From a bacterium (GTDB lineage: Bacteria > Bdellovibrionota > UBA2428): a DNA stretch of 64,000 nt. The stretch covers positions 1-64,000 of the forward strand of contig JAACVK010000022.1 of the NCBI GenBank assembly GCA_009991595.1, in the 5' to 3' direction. The notes under the pieces are model-generated. The model made no database searches and was not told where the DNA came from. It was given only the letters and a program-made list of their open reading frames with translations. Position 1 is the first letter of the stretch, and every line of letters starts with the position of its first letter. This document shows, one piece after another, positions 29,438 through 40,160 of the stretch. The position numbers and the translations under genes were made by a program.

Positions 29438-29453
29438 CTAAGCCGCAGTGTCA

Positions 29454-29481
29454 TGCCCAAAAGTGGCGGCATCTTTGGGCA
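29454..29481. repeat. Perfect intergenic hairpin TGCCCAAA/TTTGGGCA
   Basis: An 8-bp perfect stem encloses a 12-nt loop. The loop contains GCGGC, which can instead pair with GCCGC at 29442-29446, so two overlapping pairings are possible. It lies between the outer-membrane protein promoter and the tandem-repeat palindrome. Confidence 0.5.
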
Positions 29482-29510
29482 AATTTAGCGCAGCAGGTTT
29501 TACAAAGGAT

Positions 29511-29597
29511 TTTTCTTCCTAACGAGGCTTGAAGGAGCGAAGTGTACATTAGCGAAGCGGTACATGAGCGACTGAAAACGAAGTTAGGGAGGAAAAG
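29511..29597. repeat. Composite palindrome with AGCGAAG/GTACAT tandem repeats
   Basis: Outer arms ttttcttcctaac and gttagggaggaaaag form an imperfect stem. Inside, two tandem units of the type AGCGAAG-n-GTACAT lie at 29536-29550 and 29551-29566 with a partial third, and TGTAC/GTACA form a further 5-bp stem. It is non-coding, 11 nt from the tRNA-Arg 3' end, and could end or process the tRNA transcript or be a dispersed REP-like element. Confidence 0.5.
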
Positions 29598-29608
29598 CCG
29601 AAGTAAAA

Positions 29609-29685
29609 TGGCGCACCCGACAGGAATCGAACCTATAACCTCCTGATTCGTAGTCAGGTGCTCTATCCAGTTGAGCTACGGGTGC
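29609..29685 (-). tRNA. tRNA-Arg (anticodon ACG)
   Basis: A complete cloverleaf can be drawn: acceptor GCACCCG/CGGGTGC, D-stem GCTC/GAGC, anticodon stem CCTGA/TCAGG with loop CTACGAA (anticodon ACG), T-arm ATAGG-TTCGATT-CCTGT, discriminator G and encoded CCA. It reads CGN Arg codons after A34 is deaminated to inosine. The gene starts 16 nt downstream of tadA, which encodes the deaminase, and is on the same strand. Confidence 0.97.
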
Positions 29686-29701
29686 ATTGGCTTAAACGCT
29701 T

Positions 29702-30166
29702 TTAGCGCTTTTGTTTGAAAAAATCCACCAAGAGTTGTCGACATTCTTGCTCTAAAACACCTGAAATGGCCTCAAAGCGATGATTCAGCCGTTCATCGGC
29801 CGGAATGTTATACAAGGAGCCCATAGCTCCAAATTTTTGATCGAAGGCCCCGAAAACACAGCGTTTTATCCGAGCATGTGAAAGCGCCCCAGCGCACATA
29901 AAACAAGGCTCAAGCGTGCTCACAACCGTGTAATCACTCAACCTCCACTTGCCTAGCTTTTGAGAAGCTCCTTTTAAAAGCAAAATTTCCGCATGGCCGG
30001 TAGGGTCGTTTAACTGTTCTTTTTTGTTATAGGCTTCAAAAATTATCTCACCTTGATCGTCCACCAAAACAGCCGCCACAGGCACTTCGCCCTCAGTTGC
30101 AGCTTGCTTTGCAAGTTCAATGGCTCGCTTCATAGGAGCCGTAAACTGAGCTAAATCTAAAGTCAT
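29702..30166 (-). CDS. tadA: tRNA-specific adenosine deaminase
   Basis: 154 aa. It deaminates A34 of tRNA-Arg(ACG) to inosine. The zinc/catalytic motif is HAEILLL (His and Glu) with the Cys pair in STLEPCFMCAGALSHARI, as in bacterial TadA and other cytidine/deoxycytidylate-type deaminases. DPTGHAEI and the tRNA-contact GAFDQKFGAMGSLYNI segment support TadA over other deaminases. The ATG overlaps the serS stop by 4 nt. Its substrate tRNA gene follows immediately downstream. Confidence 0.93.
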   Translation of the reverse strand: MTLDLAQFTAPMKRAIELAKQAATEGEVPVAAVLVDDQGEIIFEAYNKKEQLNDPTGHAEILLLKGASQKLGKWRLSDYTVVSTLEPCFMCAGALSHARIKRCVFGAFDQKFGAMGSLYNIPADERLNHRFEAISGVLEQECRQLLVDFFKQKR

Positions 30167-31473
30167 TTAATAACTTCGAGGCCACCCATGTAAGGCTTCA
30201 ACACCTCAGGAACCGTAACACTTCCATCTTCGTTTTGATAATTTTCAATCACTGCAATAAGCGTTCTACCAACCGCAAGTCCAGAGCCGTTTAAGGTGTG
30301 AACAAAGCGGGTTCCTTTAAATTCAGTTGATTTAAAACGAATGCTAGATCTTCTTGCTTGATAGTCACTGCAATCTGAACAAGAGGAAATTTCTCTGTAA
30401 CAACCGCGCTCAGCACCTTCATGAGTGGAGCCAGGCAACCACACTTCGATGTCGTAAGTCTTTTGTGCATTATTGCCCATATCCCCTGAGCTCAAAAGCA
30501 TTACCCGGTAAGCAATTTTTAGTTTTTGTAAAACATCTTCCGCATCCGATAGCATTGCTTCAAGTTCATTTAAGCTGTCTTCTGGCTTACACAACTTAAC
30601 CAATTCAACTTTATGAAACTGATGCTGACGAATCAGCCCCCTAGTATCTTTTCCGTAAGAGCCCGCCTCGCTTCTAAAACAAGGAGAAAAAGCCACAAAT
30701 TTTTGAGGCAAATCTTCCTCAGCTAGCATTTCTCCTGCATAGAGACTCGTTAGCGGAACTTCAGAGGTCGGAATTAAATAACGATCTTGCCCCTCTAGCT
30801 TATAAACATCTTCTGAAAACTTAGGAAACTGGCCTATGCCATACATGGTGGCTGCATTGACAATGTATGGAGGAACGATTTCCTGATAGCCTTTGGTCCT
30901 ATGCAAATCGATCATAAAGTTTGCAAGAGCACGCTCGAGTTGCGCCAAACCAGAGCGCAAAAAAACAAAACGAGCACCCGTAGTTTTGGCCGCACGATCA
31001 AAATCAATTTGCCCACTAAGCTCACCTATTTCATCGTGAGATCTTGGCTTAAATTTAAACTCAGGCTTAACACCCCAACCCCTAACAAACTTATTTTCTT
31101 TTTCACCTTTACCAACGGGAACGCTTTCATGAGCTAAATTGGGTAGTCTTTCAATGGCAGAATTAAAAGACGCTTCTGACTCAGTTACCCCAGCCTCAAG
31201 TGAGCTAATCTGTTCACCAATGGTCTTGGCCTCAAGCTTTACGGCTTCTGCTTGATCTTTTTTTCCTTCACGCATTAAGCTGCCAACACTTTGAGACAGC
31301 TGATTACGCTTAGCCTTCAACAAATCGGCTTCTTGTTGCTTTGAAACTCTCGCTAATGAAAGATCTAGAACCTTCTGGCAGGCCGAAGAGGCTTCATCAT
31401 GTGAATAGCCTCTCTTTTCAAGTGCAGCTACAAAACCTTTAGGATCTTTTACTATCAATCGCCAATCTAACAT
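30163..31473 (-). CDS. serS: Seryl-tRNA synthetase
   Basis: 436 aa, the usual bacterial length. The N-terminal long coiled-coil arm (about 30-110) binds the tRNA-Ser variable arm. Class II motifs are present: PYIVNAATMYGIGQFPKF, motif 2 FVAFSPCFRSEAGSYGKDTRGLIRQHQFHKVE, and motif 3 LNGSGLAVGRTLIAVIENYQ. It is coupled to tadA (ATGA overlap) and lies 18 nt downstream of the TPR protein gene, so it may be read from the long nuo transcript as well as its own promoter. Confidence 0.97.
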   Translation of the reverse strand: MLDWRLIVKDPKGFVAALEKRGYSHDEASSACQKVLDLSLARVSKQQEADLLKAKRNQLSQSVGSLMREGKKDQAEAVKLEAKTIGEQISSLEAGVTESEASFNSAIERLPNLAHESVPVGKGEKENKFVRGWGVKPEFKFKPRSHDEIGELSGQIDFDRAAKTTGARFVFLRSGLAQLERALANFMIDLHRTKGYQEIVPPYIVNAATMYGIGQFPKFSEDVYKLEGQDRYLIPTSEVPLTSLYAGEMLAEEDLPQKFVAFSPCFRSEAGSYGKDTRGLIRQHQFHKVELVKLCKPEDSLNELEAMLSDAEDVLQKLKIAYRVMLLSSGDMGNNAQKTYDIEVWLPGSTHEGAERGCYREISSCSDCSDYQARRSSIRFKSTEFKGTRFVHTLNGSGLAVGRTLIAVIENYQNEDGSVTVPEVLKPYMGGLEVIK

Positions 31474-31491: not shown

Positions 31492-34398
31492 CTACCTATA
31501 GTAAGGAGGCTGAGTTAATCGAGCCCGTATTGCCGCCGCATCATCTGCTTGCGGAAAAAGGTGAAGATACTTCTCAAAATTATCCTTGGCCAGTCCATAT
31601 TGTCCCATACGGTCATATACGCGGCCTAGAATTCTATAGGCTTCAGCAACTTTATTGTTCTTAGCTAAGACTAACTTTGCGGTTTTTTCAGCATTATCAA
31701 CGTCTTGCATTGCCCAGTAAGCCTGTGACAAACGCAACATCACTCGAGGATCACCACTTATTGTGTCTTCATACTTTTGAAAAAGCTCGGGCACCTGCTG
31801 GGGTAAATTAATTTCAAGCATAAATTCAGCAGCTTCAAGAAAGTTCCTTAAAACACTTGGCCGCAAATCAAGTTCTCTTTTATAAAACTCAAGGGCCTTA
31901 TAGCGATCCCCACCCTTTCGGTAGGAACGAGCCACCTTCAAATACAAGTCCGGATAGTCGGGGTCATTTCGAGCAGCCGACAAGTAGTTTTGAGCGGCTT
32001 CAATGTATCGTTCCTTGGCAAAAAACATATCTGCAATTCGCACGCTGGCTTCTGTAGCACCGGGCCTAACTTTTTTTGCATCATTGTAAAAAAGCAAAGC
32101 CTCGTCCCATTTGCCCATTCGCTCATAAACGCTTCCAAGCAAGACCTTCAATTGATAAGCATGAGGAACTCTTCGAACATAATCCTTGGCAACTTCTAAG
32201 GCTTCTTGTGTTTTTCCAGCCTCATAAAGAGCAAAAACATATTCTTTTGCAATAAACACGTTTTGAGGATCGGCTTTAGTCGCTCGACCCAACTCACGAA
32301 TGGCTTCACTCATTGGAAGTTTTGCCAAAATTCTACAGCGATAATACAAAAGCTCTGAAAGAAAACGAATGGCGCCTCGTCCATGAATGCGGCCTAAGTT
32401 AGCGGCTTTCACACAATCATGGTTCTTCTCAACCTCAAAGAACGCTTTGGCTAAAAAGTAGTGCCCCATACCATCATTGGGAACATTCTTTCTATATCGC
32501 TGAAGTGTAGACACCGCCGCATCGAAATCTCTCCCATAAGTTAAAATAATTCCTTCATATTTAATGGAGTCGCCTTTTGCTTTTGGATTCTGGACCATTT
32601 TGTCATGGAGCTGATAGGCCTCATCAAATCGAAAGTTCGCTGAATCAATCCATATTTTCGAACCTAATGCCTCTACGTTGGAAGGGTCTCTTTGTAAGAT
32701 AAAACTGGCATCTCTGCTGGCTCTCTGCCAATCATTATAAAAAATTCCGTAATGTATAACGTGGATCAAACTCTCGGAAGGATCGTCTAAAGCAAAAGAT
32801 AGGTTCTCAAGAAAAGCAATATCCAAAAGATTGCTGGCCTTACGTTCAAGCTTTTTAATGATTTGGCCACTCATGTTCGAAACACTTAAGCCTTCAGATT
32901 CCAAATCCCAAAATTCTTTTGAATCTCCAACGTCCCCAGAAAGTAACAACTTAAAGTTCTCGAGCGCTTTCTTCTGAGGATCATCTCGCCCAAAGATTCC
33001 TTGAAATTGAGAATATTCCTTCCAAGCAACTGCCTGAAAGGCCATTGGGTATAGAGAAGCTATCGACAACAAGGACAGAAAAGCTTGTTGAGCCTTAGGT
33101 ATTCCAGACGCACTCGCCCTCCAGTAGTATTCTGCAGCAGATAAGTTTCCAACAAATGATTGAGGGTCAAACTCTGCCAACTGTTCTAACAATTCCTCAG
33201 ACTCCTGAGCTCCCTCTAACATTTCTTTACGAAGCTTAGACTGAATATCTAAATAGGGGTTCCCGTATTCTTTAATGTATAGCTGTGCAGGTTTGTTTCT
33301 TCCCTTATCTATAAACTCAATAAAGCTAATCTCATCTAAAAGCCAAGCAACATATTGATCTTGCTCAAGAGGACTCAAAATTTTGCGAGCTTCACTCCAT
33401 TTTCCCTGAGCAAAGACCGGTATCACAGAAAGCAACGCTCTTTGCTCTTCATCTAAAAGAGATTTTTCATTAAGCCGATCTAGTATTTTTTCACCATAGG
33501 CGCGTAAAACATCTGCTTTTTTCCTGTCGGCCACTCCGATTGTTTCAGAAACCCAAAACAAATTCCAAACTCGCCTTGCCCAAAATGTGCTATTTGAAAA
33601 AAGAGCTTCTTCTTTTTCCATCGCAACTAAATCTTGAATCCACACATGGGCGCCAAATCCCAAAGGCAACGACCAACCCGTTGCGGGTGAAACTTCTCCC
33701 GGAAGTAGGTTCAAATCTATAGTTCCCAATGCGCCGAATCTATTCAGAGCATTGAAGTAATGAAGCTGACTATTGGCAGTGACTGAAAAACCTTTGGCAT
33801 CAAGCTCCTTTATTCTGGGTCTTTCTAAAAGTAGAAAGAGACCTAACAGGCCCAAAGCCACCAAGGAAAAAACTAAAGGGCGGCTCCCTTTAACCCGAGT
33901 TTTTCTCTTGCCCTTCGAAGAAGAACTCTTCCCTGCTAAAGGGTTTTCTCTAACTTCGGTCTTCTCATCCTTATCGTCACTAAAGGAAGTTGAGCCTGAT
34001 TTGTCGACCGAAGAACCCTCCAATTGTTCAATGTCCTCACTAAAAGGCATAAACGTCTTTGTTACTAAAGAAGCGTCGCCTGTAACACGAGTTGCTTCGG
34101 CAGAATCTTCGTCTAGTGCATCTTCAAGACGATCCACCTTGGTGTCTTGATCCATTGCAGTTCTGGCTGTCTTTTTTCGTTTTTCAGTCCTATCTTCGAT
34201 CGTCGACTGAATCTGATCAAAAAACTCCGGATCGCTACTTACAACTCTCCAACGGCCTTCTTCTAGAGAAAGCATTTCCTCTTCGCCTTGAATTTTCTTT
34301 AGACGAATAAACTTCAATACATCTGCGCGAGAATACGGCCCATAGATTTTGCCGCTTGGCATTTTGATTCTAAGAACTTTTCCTTCATCATCACTCAT
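31492..34398 (-). CDS. GYF-like/TPR membrane protein, function unknown
   Basis: 968 aa. Residues about 8-60 (IKMPSGKIYGPYSRADVLKFI...EGRWRVVSSDPEF) look like a GYF_2-type domain. A charged Ser/Asp/Lys-rich linker follows, then a single membrane segment (RPLVFSLVALGLLGLFLLL, about 175-193) and a large, probably periplasmic part with TPR repeats that are clearest in the C-terminal 350 residues (EALLFYNDAKKVRPGATEA, AQNYLSAARNDPDYPDLY, AKDNFEKYLHLFPQADD). A scaffold or assembly role is likely. Its start overlaps the nuoN stop by 4 nt, so it is translationally coupled to the complex I genes. Confidence 0.8.
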   Translation of the reverse strand: MSDDEGKVLRIKMPSGKIYGPYSRADVLKFIRLKKIQGEEEMLSLEEGRWRVVSSDPEFFDQIQSTIEDRTEKRKKTARTAMDQDTKVDRLEDALDEDSAEATRVTGDASLVTKTFMPFSEDIEQLEGSSVDKSGSTSFSDDKDEKTEVRENPLAGKSSSSKGKRKTRVKGSRPLVFSLVALGLLGLFLLLERPRIKELDAKGFSVTANSQLHYFNALNRFGALGTIDLNLLPGEVSPATGWSLPLGFGAHVWIQDLVAMEKEEALFSNSTFWARRVWNLFWVSETIGVADRKKADVLRAYGEKILDRLNEKSLLDEEQRALLSVIPVFAQGKWSEARKILSPLEQDQYVAWLLDEISFIEFIDKGRNKPAQLYIKEYGNPYLDIQSKLRKEMLEGAQESEELLEQLAEFDPQSFVGNLSAAEYYWRASASGIPKAQQAFLSLLSIASLYPMAFQAVAWKEYSQFQGIFGRDDPQKKALENFKLLLSGDVGDSKEFWDLESEGLSVSNMSGQIIKKLERKASNLLDIAFLENLSFALDDPSESLIHVIHYGIFYNDWQRASRDASFILQRDPSNVEALGSKIWIDSANFRFDEAYQLHDKMVQNPKAKGDSIKYEGIILTYGRDFDAAVSTLQRYRKNVPNDGMGHYFLAKAFFEVEKNHDCVKAANLGRIHGRGAIRFLSELLYYRCRILAKLPMSEAIRELGRATKADPQNVFIAKEYVFALYEAGKTQEALEVAKDYVRRVPHAYQLKVLLGSVYERMGKWDEALLFYNDAKKVRPGATEASVRIADMFFAKERYIEAAQNYLSAARNDPDYPDLYLKVARSYRKGGDRYKALEFYKRELDLRPSVLRNFLEAAEFMLEINLPQQVPELFQKYEDTISGDPRVMLRLSQAYWAMQDVDNAEKTAKLVLAKNNKVAEAYRILGRVYDRMGQYGLAKDNFEKYLHLFPQADDAAAIRARLTQPPYYR

Positions 34399-35879
34399 CT
34401 AGCCATCAACTCAGCACTAGAGATTAAACCTTGAAGGTAAGTAAATCCAAACAACACAAGCAGCGAAAACACTGTTGCCGCAATAGCCGTCAAACTAGCT
34501 CCCGAAGATGAAGTCTCTGAATTTGTTTTTTTTGAATCAATTGCTGGATATAAAGCCATTGGAACTAGAGATCTTAAATAGAAGCCTAGCCCTAAAAAGG
34601 TTCCAATCAATGCCACTGCTAACAGCAAAAATGCTGAATTTTTAGCAAGCACCGACAACAAAACATATTTTGTGAAAAACCCAGGAAGAGGTGGAATTCC
34701 AGCCAATGATAACAATGCAAATCCCAACAAAACTAGGTAAAATGGGCTCAACTTGGACTTGAGTTCCACAAAAGAATTAATTTCTAAATCATCGTCCATG
34801 CTTCTTCCCAATCGAAGCAATGCAATTTCATGAACAGCAAAACAGATCAAAACACTAAGCGCATAGACCAACAAAAAGCCGATAACACTTGGTAGGACGC
34901 TCAAACCATTAGGCAAAACTAATGCGACAAAACCAGCATTCACAACTCCAGAGTAGGCCAACATGCGCCTTAGTCGGCTTTGGGTAAGGGCCATGACGGC
35001 GCCCAAAACAACGCTCAAGACACCTAACAGTTTTACATATAATGAAACTCCCGGAATGTCCCAAAGTCCACATTCACTGAAAGCCAAAACAATCGACGAG
35101 AACACACTTAACTTCGTTGCTCCGGCCAAAAAAGAGGCAATGGGAGCTGGGGCTCCTTGATAAACATCTGCCGCCCAGAAATGAAAAGGAAACAGAGAAA
35201 CTTTAAAAGCTAATGAACTAAAAACAAGAGCAACGGCCGTAAAGCACAGAAATTGTTGGGGGCCAGCTGCGGCAGTCATTGCAACCGATATGGCTTCAAA
35301 TTTGAAAGATCCACTCACAGCAAAGAACAAACTTATTCCGAGCAAAAAGAAACAGGATACAAAAGCCCCCATCATCAAATACTTCATCGAAGCCTCTAAG
35401 CTTTTTTCTCGATTTGAATACAATGCGCTTAACAAATAAGCCGGAATTGATAGCACCTCTAGATAAACAAAAAATGCCACCCAATTTCGAGCTGTAGGCA
35501 ACAAACACATCCCCAAAACACAAATTAGCAAGAGAGCTCCCCACTCAGAATGTCGAGCGTAATCGGGGCCTCGAACATAGAGAGAGCTCAAGGCAGCAAT
35601 CAAACAAATTCCGCCAGCAACTATCCTCTCCATGGGCCCGAGCTCCATTGACGACCCCAAGAAAAAACGTCCTTGGCTTAACAAAGAAGCAAAAAATAAT
35701 ACAGCCGCCCCAGAAAGAAAGCTAAAACTCAAAGTACGTAAAACCAGGTCTTTCGCTCTCATAGAAGCTGCAACAACAAGCACAGCAATCCCTGCAAATA
35801 ACAGAATAAAAGGAGAAAGGTTTTTCCAATCGTCCGGCCCTAAATAAAAGATACTCGAATCAAAAAAATCAATCGGCAT
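34395..35879 (-). CDS. nuoN: NADH-quinone oxidoreductase subunit N (block 2)
   Basis: 494 aa antiporter-like membrane subunit of complex I. Functional residues of the channel are in place: Glu in YLEVLSIPAYL, Lys in LAFKVSLFPFHFW followed by ADVYQGAPAPIASFLAG, and Lys in PGFFTKYVLL. It is the last nuo gene of the locus. By eye it is quite different from the other NuoN of the window (44065-45582), so it is not a recent duplicate. It overlaps the TPR gene and lies 3 nt after nuoM. Confidence 0.93.
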   Translation of the reverse strand: MPIDFFDSSIFYLGPDDWKNLSPFILLFAGIAVLVVAASMRAKDLVLRTLSFSFLSGAAVLFFASLLSQGRFFLGSSMELGPMERIVAGGICLIAALSSLYVRGPDYARHSEWGALLLICVLGMCLLPTARNWVAFFVYLEVLSIPAYLLSALYSNREKSLEASMKYLMMGAFVSCFFLLGISLFFAVSGSFKFEAISVAMTAAAGPQQFLCFTAVALVFSSLAFKVSLFPFHFWAADVYQGAPAPIASFLAGATKLSVFSSIVLAFSECGLWDIPGVSLYVKLLGVLSVVLGAVMALTQSRLRRMLAYSGVVNAGFVALVLPNGLSVLPSVIGFLLVYALSVLICFAVHEIALLRLGRSMDDDLEINSFVELKSKLSPFYLVLLGFALLSLAGIPPLPGFFTKYVLLSVLAKNSAFLLLAVALIGTFLGLGFYLRSLVPMALYPAIDSKKTNSETSSSGASLTAIAATVFSLLVLFGFTYLQGLISSAELMAR

Positions 35880-35882
35880 TCA

Positions 35883-37382
35883 TTACCTCAATATCTCGCC
35901 TTGAAGGTTATAGATTATTGTAGCGGAAGCTCGAGCTGTAACGGCAATCAAACCTTGTCCCCAAAAGCCGAGAACAATCATTGCTATAATCATCGGGATA
36001 ATTGAACCCCACTCTGAAAAAGATAGTTTTATCGGGTGGCTTTTCAAGACAGAGGAGGTTTCTCCGTAAATCATTCCGCGAACAATTCGAAGCATATAAA
36101 CAGCTCCTAATAAAATTCCAAAACACGCAAAGAAAGCAAACCATGGTGATAAAACAAAGGTTCCGTTCAAAATAAGAAATTCACCAATAAACCCAGGAAG
36201 GCCCGGAAGTCCAATGGAGGCCATTACGCTCAAAACAAAAAGCATAGAAAGCCGTGGGTTAACAATTCCCAATCCACCGTAGTCAGACAACTCTCTAGTG
36301 TGGGTGCGGTCATAGATGATTCCAAAAATTAAAAACAATGCGCCCGTGCTCAAGCCATGGGCAATGTTTTGAAACATAGCGCCCTGAAATCCCGCCAACT
36401 GAAAACTAAACAAACCCAAAAGCATAAAACCCAAATGGGCGACGGAAGAGTAAGCAATGGTGCGCTTAATGTCGGTTTGCCTAAGAGCTCCGTAACTTCC
36501 TAAAATTATCCCGGCCAAAGCCAAAACCTTCATCGTAAACGAAACAACATCCAAAACGGCGATAGAAGGAAACAAAGCCAAACACCAACGAGCAATCCCG
36601 TAGACGCCAAGCTTTAATAAAACGCCAGCCAAGATCACAGAAGCGCCAGTCGGAGCCTCCGTGTGCGCATCAGGAAGCCAAACATGAAGAGGCCAAGCTG
36701 GAATCTTCACCAAAAAAGCAATCAAAAAGCCGCAGAAAACCCAAAAACGTGGAGACCACAATCCATCTCCCAACAAGCCCAACTGGGCAATCGAGTGCCA
36801 GCCCATACTTTGAATGTCGGGCTGCACCCACAAATATAGAATGGCAGCCAACATGGCCAAAGAGCCCAACATGGTGAAGGCAAAAAACTTCAGCGCAGCA
36901 TAAACTCGGTTCTTAGAGCCCCAAATTCCAATCAGAAAGAACATTGGAATAAGCATGGCCTCCCAAAAGATATAAAAGACAAAGGCATCAGCAGCCATCA
37001 ACGACCCAACGCTTGCTGCATTTAAAAGCGCAAACAAGGCTAAATAAGATGAGCTAAGTTTTTCTTTGCCTAGTGCATATAAAGACAAACAAAAACTTAA
37101 AAACACATTAAGGCCTATAAGCGGTAAATTTAAACCATCTAACCCTAAAGCAAAATTAGACTTAAGCAGTGGAAAGAAATCAGAATTGAAAACAATCGGG
37201 AACATCCCGTCAGCGGTGCTTGAACGCCAAAGCAAACAGCTTTGATACAAAAACCAAAACCACGGCAAATGAAAAACCATGTTTGCCCATTGAGCCGCCT
37301 TTTTGTTTTTTCTGAAAGTAAACAATAGAAAGGCGAAAATGGCTGGCCAAAAGATGAGCATAGCTGTGTTTATAGGGTCCAT
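35883..37382 (-). CDS. nuoM: NADH-quinone oxidoreductase subunit M (block 2)
   Basis: 499 aa from ATG 37382 (MDPINTAMLIFWP), which has GGGAG upstream; the track start at 37430 would overlap nuoL by 61 nt. Antiporter-like membrane subunit with Glu in FYIFWEAMLIPMFFLIGIWG, Lys in LVKIPAWPLHVWLPDAHTEAP, ILAGVLLKLGVYG, and Glu in GFIGEFLILNG. All expected proton-path residues are kept. It is the second NuoM of the locus. Confidence 0.94.
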   Translation of the reverse strand: MDPINTAMLIFWPAIFAFLLFTFRKNKKAAQWANMVFHLPWFWFLYQSCLLWRSSTADGMFPIVFNSDFFPLLKSNFALGLDGLNLPLIGLNVFLSFCLSLYALGKEKLSSSYLALFALLNAASVGSLMAADAFVFYIFWEAMLIPMFFLIGIWGSKNRVYAALKFFAFTMLGSLAMLAAILYLWVQPDIQSMGWHSIAQLGLLGDGLWSPRFWVFCGFLIAFLVKIPAWPLHVWLPDAHTEAPTGASVILAGVLLKLGVYGIARWCLALFPSIAVLDVVSFTMKVLALAGIILGSYGALRQTDIKRTIAYSSVAHLGFMLLGLFSFQLAGFQGAMFQNIAHGLSTGALFLIFGIIYDRTHTRELSDYGGLGIVNPRLSMLFVLSVMASIGLPGLPGFIGEFLILNGTFVLSPWFAFFACFGILLGAVYMLRIVRGMIYGETSSVLKSHPIKLSFSEWGSIIPMIIAMIVLGFWGQGLIAVTARASATIIYNLQGEILR

Positions 37383-39292
37383 AAGAAAATAGCTCCCACA
37401 ATTAACGAAGACCAAAAAACAAAGTGCCAAGCGTAGGTCTGAACACTGCCAGTATGAAACAAAGCCAAGAGCCGTCCGCTTAAACGTGTAAAACGAAACG
37501 AACCATTGGCAAGTCCATTAAAGGTAGTCTCGTCTGAAATGCGATTGATAAACCTTCCCGCTTTCATGGACGGCTTAATTAAAAGCAATTCAAAAGCTTC
37601 ATCTACATAAAACTTATTGGTGCTCCACTTGTGAAGCGGTTCCGGAAGTATCTTAAACTCCGGGTTCCTTTGATAGATCTTAAAGGAATAATAAGCCACG
37701 GTTAAAGACAGTACGCTAGTAATTAGCATCAACAACCACTCGGCTAGGTGTGACAAGTGAGCCTGCTCACCAACCCCTACACCATACCAAGAGGAATGAA
37801 CCCAATCCGTAATTTTTGTGAAATGGCCAAAGACCTCGGGCAACTCTAACCAGCCAATAAAAAGAGAAAGAAAAGCAAGGACAACAAGCGGCATATACAT
37901 TAGTGGGTCAGATTCATGAGCCTTTTGAGCATACTCACTTCGAGCGCCCCCCCAAAAGCACAACGTGTAGGCCCTAAACATGTAGGCGGCAGTCAATAGA
38001 GCTGCGCCTAACAAAAGAATGTATCCAAACACACCCTGTGCAGCAAAAACCTTCGCTAAGATCATGTCCTTTGAAAAAAAGCCTGCCGTCAAAGGGAAAC
38101 CAATAATGGCCAAAGTTCCAATGAGAAAACAAACGTGAGTGATCTTCATTTTATCTTTTAACCCACCCATTAATGACATCTCTTGTTTGTGATGCATACC
38201 ATGGATGACAGATCCCGCCGCCAAAAACAAAAGAGCCTTAAAACAAGCATGAGTTATAACGTGGAAAAACGCGGCAGCTGGACTGCCCGCCCCAAGAGCA
38301 ACAAACATAAAGCCAAGCTGACTGACTGTAGAATACGCTAATACTTTTTTCACATCGGTTTGGCTAACAGCAATTAAAGCAGCAAGCCAAGCAGTAGACA
38401 TTCCAATCCAAAAAGCAGCATCTACAATCACTGGACTCATAGCAAAAAGTGGCCAGACTCTACAGATAAGGAATATGCCTGAAGTGACCATTGTTGCAGC
38501 GTGGATTAAGGCAGAAACGGGCGTAGGGCCAGCCATTGCATCTGGTAGCCAGATATACAGAGGAATTTGAGCAGACTTTGCGGTTGCCGCCCAAAGCAAA
38601 GAGCCTGCAAAAGTATACCAAGCCCAGGTAGGAACCCCGCTGCTTAAAAAAGCATAATCATTAACTCTTTCCGCCAAGCGACTAATGTCTCCAGTTTGAA
38701 AAAAGGAAAAGGCAACAAACAGTGCGATAAGAAAACCTATGTCGCCCACTCGATTTGTAATAAAGGCCTTCATGCCAGCGGCGGTGTTTTCAGGCTTCTT
38801 ATACCAGTAGCCAATAAGCAGATAGGAACAAAGGCCAACTCCTTCCCATCCAAGAAAGACAACGGCCAAATTAGAGGCCAACACCAACACGAGCATTGCT
38901 GCAAGAAATAGATTCAAGTATGAGAAAAAGCGCCAAGGGCTCTCTTCCTCTGACAGATAAGAAATAGAATAAATATGAATCAACGATCCAATGCCGGTAA
39001 TAACCAAAAGCATAACTGAGGTAATAGAGGTTAGTTCTAAATTAAAAGGAACATAGACGTGCCCACTACTCATCCACGTGAAAAGTGGATCAATCAAAAA
39101 GTTTTGCTCTGGCGCAGAATTCAGTCCAGATAACTGGGAACACGCTACAACACTAAACCCAAATGCAACTAGACTGGCCAAAGTTGCAACCAAGCCTGAG
39201 ATCTTTGCACTCTTATTTTGGAGAATCACTCCGTTGAGCACGGCGCCAAGCAAAGGGGCCAGTAAAATCCATCTCAATCCTTCAAAAATCAT
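37370..39292 (-). CDS. nuoL: NADH-quinone oxidoreductase subunit L (block 2)
   Basis: 640 aa, the distal antiporter-like subunit with a C-terminal lateral helix. Motifs: FLGWEGVGLCSYLLIGYWY, TAKSAQIPLYIWLPDAMAGPTPVSALIHAATM, DVKKVLAYSTVSQLGFM and FFSKDMIL. The C-terminal third (HKWSTNKFYVDEAFELLLIKP) contains the lateral helix region. It starts overlapping the nuoK stop by 4 nt. About 60 aa shorter than the block 1 NuoL. Confidence 0.95.
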   Translation of the reverse strand: MIFEGLRWILLAPLLGAVLNGVILQNKSAKISGLVATLASLVAFGFSVVACSQLSGLNSAPEQNFLIDPLFTWMSSGHVYVPFNLELTSITSVMLLVITGIGSLIHIYSISYLSEEESPWRFFSYLNLFLAAMLVLVLASNLAVVFLGWEGVGLCSYLLIGYWYKKPENTAAGMKAFITNRVGDIGFLIALFVAFSFFQTGDISRLAERVNDYAFLSSGVPTWAWYTFAGSLLWAATAKSAQIPLYIWLPDAMAGPTPVSALIHAATMVTSGIFLICRVWPLFAMSPVIVDAAFWIGMSTAWLAALIAVSQTDVKKVLAYSTVSQLGFMFVALGAGSPAAAFFHVITHACFKALLFLAAGSVIHGMHHKQEMSLMGGLKDKMKITHVCFLIGTLAIIGFPLTAGFFSKDMILAKVFAAQGVFGYILLLGAALLTAAYMFRAYTLCFWGGARSEYAQKAHESDPLMYMPLVVLAFLSLFIGWLELPEVFGHFTKITDWVHSSWYGVGVGEQAHLSHLAEWLLMLITSVLSLTVAYYSFKIYQRNPEFKILPEPLHKWSTNKFYVDEAFELLLIKPSMKAGRFINRISDETTFNGLANGSFRFTRLSGRLLALFHTGSVQTYAWHFVFWSSLIVGAIFLWTL

Positions 39293-39606
39293 CCCTTCAG
39301 TCTCCTGTAATCATCTAAAACAACTGAGCCAAAACGTCGGGAAAGAATAACAAAAATTGACAAAGCAATTGCAGCCTCAGCTGCGGCCACTAAAACAATA
39401 AACAAAAACAAGGAGGCCCCATCAGGCGAGGAGTGATGCTTAGAAAAGGTCATCAAGAACAAATTCACACCATTAAGCATTAGCTCTAAACACATAAGAG
39501 CAATGAGCCCACTTCTTTTACAAAGAAACCCATAAGCTCCAATGGCAAATAGAGCAATTGAAACAAAAACATGAAACTCAAGTTCTCCAACAGGAAGGGA
39601 TATCAC
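39289..39606 (-). CDS. nuoK: NADH-quinone oxidoreductase subunit K (block 2)
   Basis: 105 aa with three membrane helices, the usual size. The conserved Glu residues of the E-channel are in ALMCLELMLNGVNLFLMTF and FIVLVAAAEAAIALSIFVIL. Overlaps nuoJ and nuoL by 4 nt each. Confidence 0.95.
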   Translation of the reverse strand: MISLPVGELEFHVFVSIALFAIGAYGFLCKRSGLIALMCLELMLNGVNLFLMTFSKHHSSPDGASLFLFIVLVAAAEAAIALSIFVILSRRFGSVVLDDYRRLKG

Positions 39607-40160
39607 GGCTCACCTCGCGATTCATTTGAAGGGCTTCTCACAGATTTCGCCAACATGATTACCCCTACAATCGCCGCTAATATTAAAAAACCGGTGGCCT
39701 GAAATGGAAGCATATATGTGCTTACAAAATTATATGAAATTGCTTTTGCCGAAAGCGCAGTCAAATTACTTTCCTGAAGCCCCGGCTCAAAGAGTCCGGG
39801 AACAGCCAAAAGAGCGACAACAACAACAAACATCGCCGTTGCAGCAAAAGCTAGTAACGCAACACCCTTTTGCCCAGGAATAGCCACACGCGATGGCTTT
39901 AGATCCAAAAGCATGACAATAAAAACAAACAAAACTGCTATGGCTCCTGCATAGATAAGTACTTGAACAACACCGGCAAAGTAGGCTCCTTTTGCAAAAT
40001 ATAAAAAGGCAGTTAAAAAGAGTGTCGCCATCAGGGACAATGCAGAACTCACTGCGCTTTTAGAATGCACAACCCCAATAGCAGCGGCCAAGGCCAATAT
40101 GCCCACAACCACCTGGAACAAATTAACTTGTCCCATTACAACTATACCCTCGCTCATCAA
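39603..40160 (-). CDS. nuoJ: NADH-quinone oxidoreductase subunit J (block 2)
   Basis: 185 aa, five membrane helices. YFAKGAYFAGVVQVLIYAGAIAVLFVFIVMLLDL is the hallmark third-helix segment of NuoJ, which forms a pi-bulge and couples the E-channel. The start may be at MSEG or MGQV a few codons on. It overlaps nuoH by 4 nt. In standard operons nuoI lies between nuoH and nuoJ; here there is no room for it. Confidence 0.93.
   Translation of the reverse strand: MMSEGIVVMGQVNLFQVVVGILALAAAIGVVHSKSAVSSALSLMATLFLTAFLYFAKGAYFAGVVQVLIYAGAIAVLFVFIVMLLDLKPSRVAIPGQKGVALLAFAATAMFVVVVALLAVPGLFEPGLQESNLTALSAKAISYNFVSTYMLPFQATGFLILAAIVGVIMLAKSVRSPSNESRGEP

Follow-up and report, generated by a model that had tools for sequence, protein, structure and literature searches.

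Mixed operons that combine protein and tRNA genes, such as secG–leuU of Escherichia coli, were reportedly described by Mohanty and Kushner in 2008. In such an operon (the 2008 study is cited in PMC3985628) the tRNA gene directly follows the protein gene and the tRNA is released from a shared transcript partly by RNase P, much as we propose below for a tadA locus of Bdellovibrionota; SecG is, however, enzymatically unrelated to the tRNA, whereas TadA edits the tRNA that is encoded next to it. The selABC and pyl gene clusters do link a tRNA gene with an enzyme acting on it, as is the case here, but they serve special amino acids, whereas TadA is a housekeeping wobble deaminase. In E. coli, tadA is presumably not linked to any gene for tRNA-Arg(ACG), the canonical TadA substrate, and we take it to lie outside the serV–argVYZQ operon. 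In this operon the tRNA-Arg2(ACG) genes are linked to a tRNA-Ser gene, and E. coli has thereby kept a piece of a wider linkage (PMC13170351). This wider linkage is most compact in Myxococcota, in the order serS–tRNA-Ser(UGA)–tRNA-Ser(GCU)–tRNA-Arg(ACG)–tadA–tRNA-Ser(CGA)–tRNA-Ser(GGA); a description of such a serS/tRNA-Ser/tRNA-Arg/tadA cluster was not found in the papers searched. It resembles the locus studied here in that serS, tadA and tRNA-Arg(ACG) share one strand within a short stretch, and differs from it in that the tRNA-Arg gene lies upstream of tadA with tRNA-Ser genes on the flanks, whereas here it follows tadA, with no tRNA-Ser genes at the site.

The window analysed (the whole stretch of 64,000 nt) contains a single tRNA gene according to both ARAGORN and Rfam (RF00005, 68.9 bits). 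This is tRNA-Arg(ACG), located at 29609–29685 on the minus strand (the strand of all features described here), with an encoded CCA end, an intact cloverleaf and an ACG anticodon in the 7-nt loop CUACGAA, A34 being at position 29651. The open reading frame at 29702–30166, which encodes a protein of 154 residues, ends 16 nt upstream of it (spacer 29686–29701). The protein scores 158.9 bits against the NCBIfam TadA equivalog model NF008113 (cut-off 150), matches TadA chains of solved structures in the PDB with E values of 1e-34 to 4e-38 and carries the invariant zinc motifs HAE (His58, Ala59, Glu60) and PCxxC (Pro87, Cys88, Cys91). These matches identify it as TadA, the predicted A34 deaminase of tRNA-Arg(ACG). 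The earlier note had placed tadA directly upstream of this tRNA gene, on the same strand and 16 nt away, and these coordinates are confirmed.

On its other side, tadA overlaps serS, which encodes seryl-tRNA synthetase (30163–31473; TIGR00414, 521 bits), by 4 nt (ATGA), a feature absent from the earlier note. A gene for a TPR-repeat protein (31492–34398; Pfam TPR matches and synteny) lies 18 nt upstream of serS and, further up, the same strand carries tightly packed nuoN-, nuoM-, nuoL-, nuoK- and nuoJ-like genes for membrane subunits of complex I (34395–39932; Pfam matches and synteny). The joining of complex I genes to translation genes (31492–39932) is unusual, and its order is common to the family of the window genome. 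Consensus scanning is weak evidence on promoters, and those of Bdellovibrionota may differ from the sigma70-like type; such a scan of the minus strand gave no match between 29.4 and 31.5 kb, and hence none in the tadA–tRNA spacer or in the 1.8 kb that precede the tRNA gene. The nearest match (31606–31579, within the TPR gene) is weak, and the scan as a whole returned no more matches than chance would. A tRNA gene on the same strand as the preceding coding sequence, a 16-nt spacer and no promoter match in this consensus scan are the features of a mixed mRNA–tRNA operon. The short gap, the serS/tadA overlap and the lack of a promoter match make it likely that serS, tadA and tRNA-Arg(ACG) are co-transcribed, and hence, as the earlier note had supposed, that the tRNA probably forms the 3′ end of the tadA mRNA.

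The family of the window genome (f1) comprises four genomes (G000, the window genome, to G003), each of which represents a separate genus. In all four, serS precedes tadA and shares its strand; in three of them (G000, G001 and G002) tRNA-Arg(ACG) comes directly after tadA, with gaps of 16, 38 and 85 nt, respectively. The adjacency is thus not specific to one strain. In the fourth genus (G003) 12.7 kb separate tadA from the tRNA gene, which is still downstream and on the same strand; the link between the two is thus dispensable. The TadA proteins of the relatives are only 54–56% identical to that of the window, so the gene order has been kept while the sequences diverged considerably. Also common to the family is the upstream nuo–TPR–serS block, the TPR protein having about 30% identity; the gene content downstream of tRNA-Arg(ACG) differs from one genome to another, and no conserved sequence was found in the tadA–tRNA spacers of the relatives compared. 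For a genome of this size, the chance of finding a given single-copy tRNA gene within 200 nt of a given gene and on the same strand is about one in 10^4, so an adjacency present in three of four genera is not accidental. Regarding copy number, the window assembly (2.96 Mb in 124 contigs) is about 91% complete and yielded no second tRNA-Arg(ACG) gene among 41 tRNA hits, the anticodons of 11 of which were not all read. Candidates for a second copy that arose from pattern matches in G001 and G003 are not tRNAs according to ARAGORN.

Three further sets of tadA loci were surveyed. The first came from 80 genomes of other Bdellovibrionota, in most cases with a single genome for each genus; the second consisted of 80 named loci that a wide GTDB genome scan had returned, almost exclusively from outside this phylum; and the third was made up of the best 30 matching loci of a Myxococcota-centred sample of 77 genomes. 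The percentages are descriptive only, because these samples were chosen by similarity and are not phylogenetically independent. Among the other Bdellovibrionota, tRNA-Arg(ACG) lies within about 5 kb of tadA in 22 of 80 loci, whereas a single-copy gene placed at random in 3 Mb would be expected there in about 0.3 of 80. In 21 of these loci the two genes share a strand, and in every one of the 21 tRNA-Arg(ACG) is upstream of tadA; in 25 of the 80 loci, tRNA-Ser(GGA) is the first tRNA gene to follow tadA within 200 nt. The corresponding numbers in the wide set are six for tRNA-Arg(ACG) near tadA (four of them within 200 nt upstream) and 23 of 80 for a tRNA-Ser just after tadA. In the best 30 loci of the Myxococcota-centred sample, tRNA-Arg(ACG) is upstream in 19, which are all of the linked cases, and tRNA-Ser(CGA) comes just after tadA in 21; the compact cluster is complete in 17 of these 30, with the tRNA-Arg gene 39–94 nt before the tadA match. 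The Myxococcota cluster loci are L265–L282, and the cluster or parts of it also occur in several phyla (L114, L115, L131 and L170), the tRNA-Arg(ACG)–tadA pair being present as well in MAGs labelled as Poribacteria and Nitrospirae. The linkage of tadA with its substrate tRNA is therefore real, recurring and far above chance. Two variants occur: in family f8 of the other Bdellovibrionota (L177–L203) a gene for a protein of about 230–250 residues with a hydrophobic N-terminus often lies between tRNA-Arg(ACG) and tadA, and in family f3 (L250 and L252) a tRNA-Leu(CAG) gene lies 8–38 nt upstream of tadA with tRNA-Ser(GGA) just downstream.

The slot after tadA is thus often occupied by a tRNA gene (Arg or Ser, within 200 nt, in 72 of 194 loci over four sample sets). 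Where it is a tRNA-Ser, its anticodon is GGA, CGA or UGA, and hence it offers no A34; the substrate tRNA takes this place in only three genera of the survey, all of them in f1. The window shares with the wider cluster the co-linear serS, tadA and tRNA-Arg(ACG) genes. It has neither the tRNA-Ser genes flanking tadA nor the upstream tRNA-Arg, and because it holds a single tRNA gene, placed downstream, it can be a derived variant of the cluster at most. From an informal comparison of gene orders, we infer that the layout in which the tadA mRNA ends with the substrate tRNA is a local derivative of this cluster.

Our best reading, to which we give a probability of roughly three in four, is that the locus is a mixed serS–tadA–tRNA-Arg(ACG) translation operon that was rearranged from the older cluster and that links the dosage of its products. 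The operon would be fed by read-through from the upstream TPR and nuo genes or by a promoter inside them, and a single transcript would then supply SerRS, TadA and the substrate tRNA of TadA. RNase P would generate the 5′ end of the tRNA by cutting 16 nt past the end of the tadA coding sequence; the other end would be matured by 3′ nucleases. The ancestral order may have been serS–tRNA-Ser–tRNA-Ser–tRNA-Arg(ACG)–tadA–tRNA-Ser–tRNA-Ser, with tRNA-Arg upstream of tadA; in f1, the tRNA-Ser genes would have been lost from the site, serS and tadA would have been joined and tRNA-Arg would have come to lie downstream. With both encoded on one transcript, the doses of enzyme and substrate would stay coupled, with no need for a dedicated feedback loop. 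The ratio between the two matters, since extra tRNA-Arg2 lowers editing levels in E. coli, where A-to-I editing of mRNAs is likewise influenced by the TadA:substrate ratio (PMC13170351). Against the operon stands the fact that tRNA-Arg(ACG) is near tadA in so few of the wide-scan loci (6 of 80) and that E. coli manages without the link. The mechanism is an ordinary one and the synteny at the window mildly interesting; the association of tadA with serS and tRNA-Ser genes across phyla is, as a finding on synteny, modest but genuine, and the linkage, if functional, would provide a natural system in which to study how TadA is balanced against its tRNA substrate in the cell.

Compatible with this operon, although much less probable, is the idea that the 3′ end of the tadA mRNA is set by RNase P acting on whichever tRNA lies downstream, with a weak effect on the stability of the message and no recognition of the substrate by TadA. 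The frequency of a tRNA gene, Arg or Ser, shortly after tadA would make such a 3′ end a recurring one, but most loci have no downstream tRNA, and the position of the tRNA may merely reflect the cluster. Somewhat less probable again is a promoter of the tRNA's own, in the 3′ end of tadA or in the spacer, with the adjacency being a residue of the old cluster. The spacers of 38 and 85 nt in two relatives could hold part of such a promoter, which also counts against the operon, and the tRNA gene of G003 stands far from tadA; the window spacer, however, has only 16 nt, and the strand shows no sigma70-like match over the 1.8 kb upstream of the tRNA.

The earlier note had gone further and offered a scheme of autoregulation, in which TadA could meet its substrate sequence on its own mRNA and tRNA processing would cut the message. 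Spelt out, TadA would bind or edit the tRNA while this is still part of the tadA transcript, and loss of the 3′ end through tRNA processing would limit the life of the tadA mRNA. It is true that TadA acts on a minimal RNA resembling an anticodon arm and that the regulation of tadA is said to be little known (PMC11472039). In the serS–tadA–tRNA transcript, the only UACG located in an anticodon-like 7-nt loop is that of the tRNA itself, the UACG motifs inside serS and tadA having been discarded as self-editing sites for want of such a loop. Yet in the other linked lineages the tRNA-Arg is almost always upstream of tadA, where its processing would instead give tadA a new 5′ end, and any tRNA that fills their downstream slot is a tRNA-Ser, which is not a substrate. 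The spacer sequence is not conserved, and any tRNA in the slot would be cut alike. RNase P cleavage is expected on the tadA message, as the note had it, but with a site beyond the stop codon it would leave the coding sequence intact. The stability of the mRNA may still be affected, but nothing in these comparisons favours an effect that is specific to the substrate. We therefore consider this autoregulation improbable; of the earlier proposal, the adjacency, its conservation and the probable co-transcript are supported, and the substrate-dependent loop is not. Still harder to credit is a version in which the f1 tRNA acts as a sensor, with TadA occupancy competing with RNase P and mRNA stability tied to the level of unedited tRNA-Arg.

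Elsewhere in the window genome, contig C44 carries a tRNA-Arg(GCG) gene (L059:436–509) beside two tRNA-Ser genes. This gene has no encoded CCA, in contrast to the tRNA-Arg(ACG) of the window, and we do not retain it as a competitor of I34 decoding because the contig is probably a contaminant in the MAG.

Finally, an imperfect inverted repeat (29495–29608) directly follows the CCA end of the tRNA. It is present in a single copy in the genome, which rules out a genomic repeat, and it has no clear U-run. The fold z-score is −2.55 for the 168-nt stretch 29441–29608 and −1.53 for 129 nt, only modestly better than shuffled sequences, so we do not call it a clear terminator; it may possibly mark the end of the transcript or form a stem that protects the 3′ end. 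The stretches downstream of the tRNA in the relatives fold no better than shuffled sequences. A stem-loop similar to the inverted repeat of the window follows the tRNA at locus L093.
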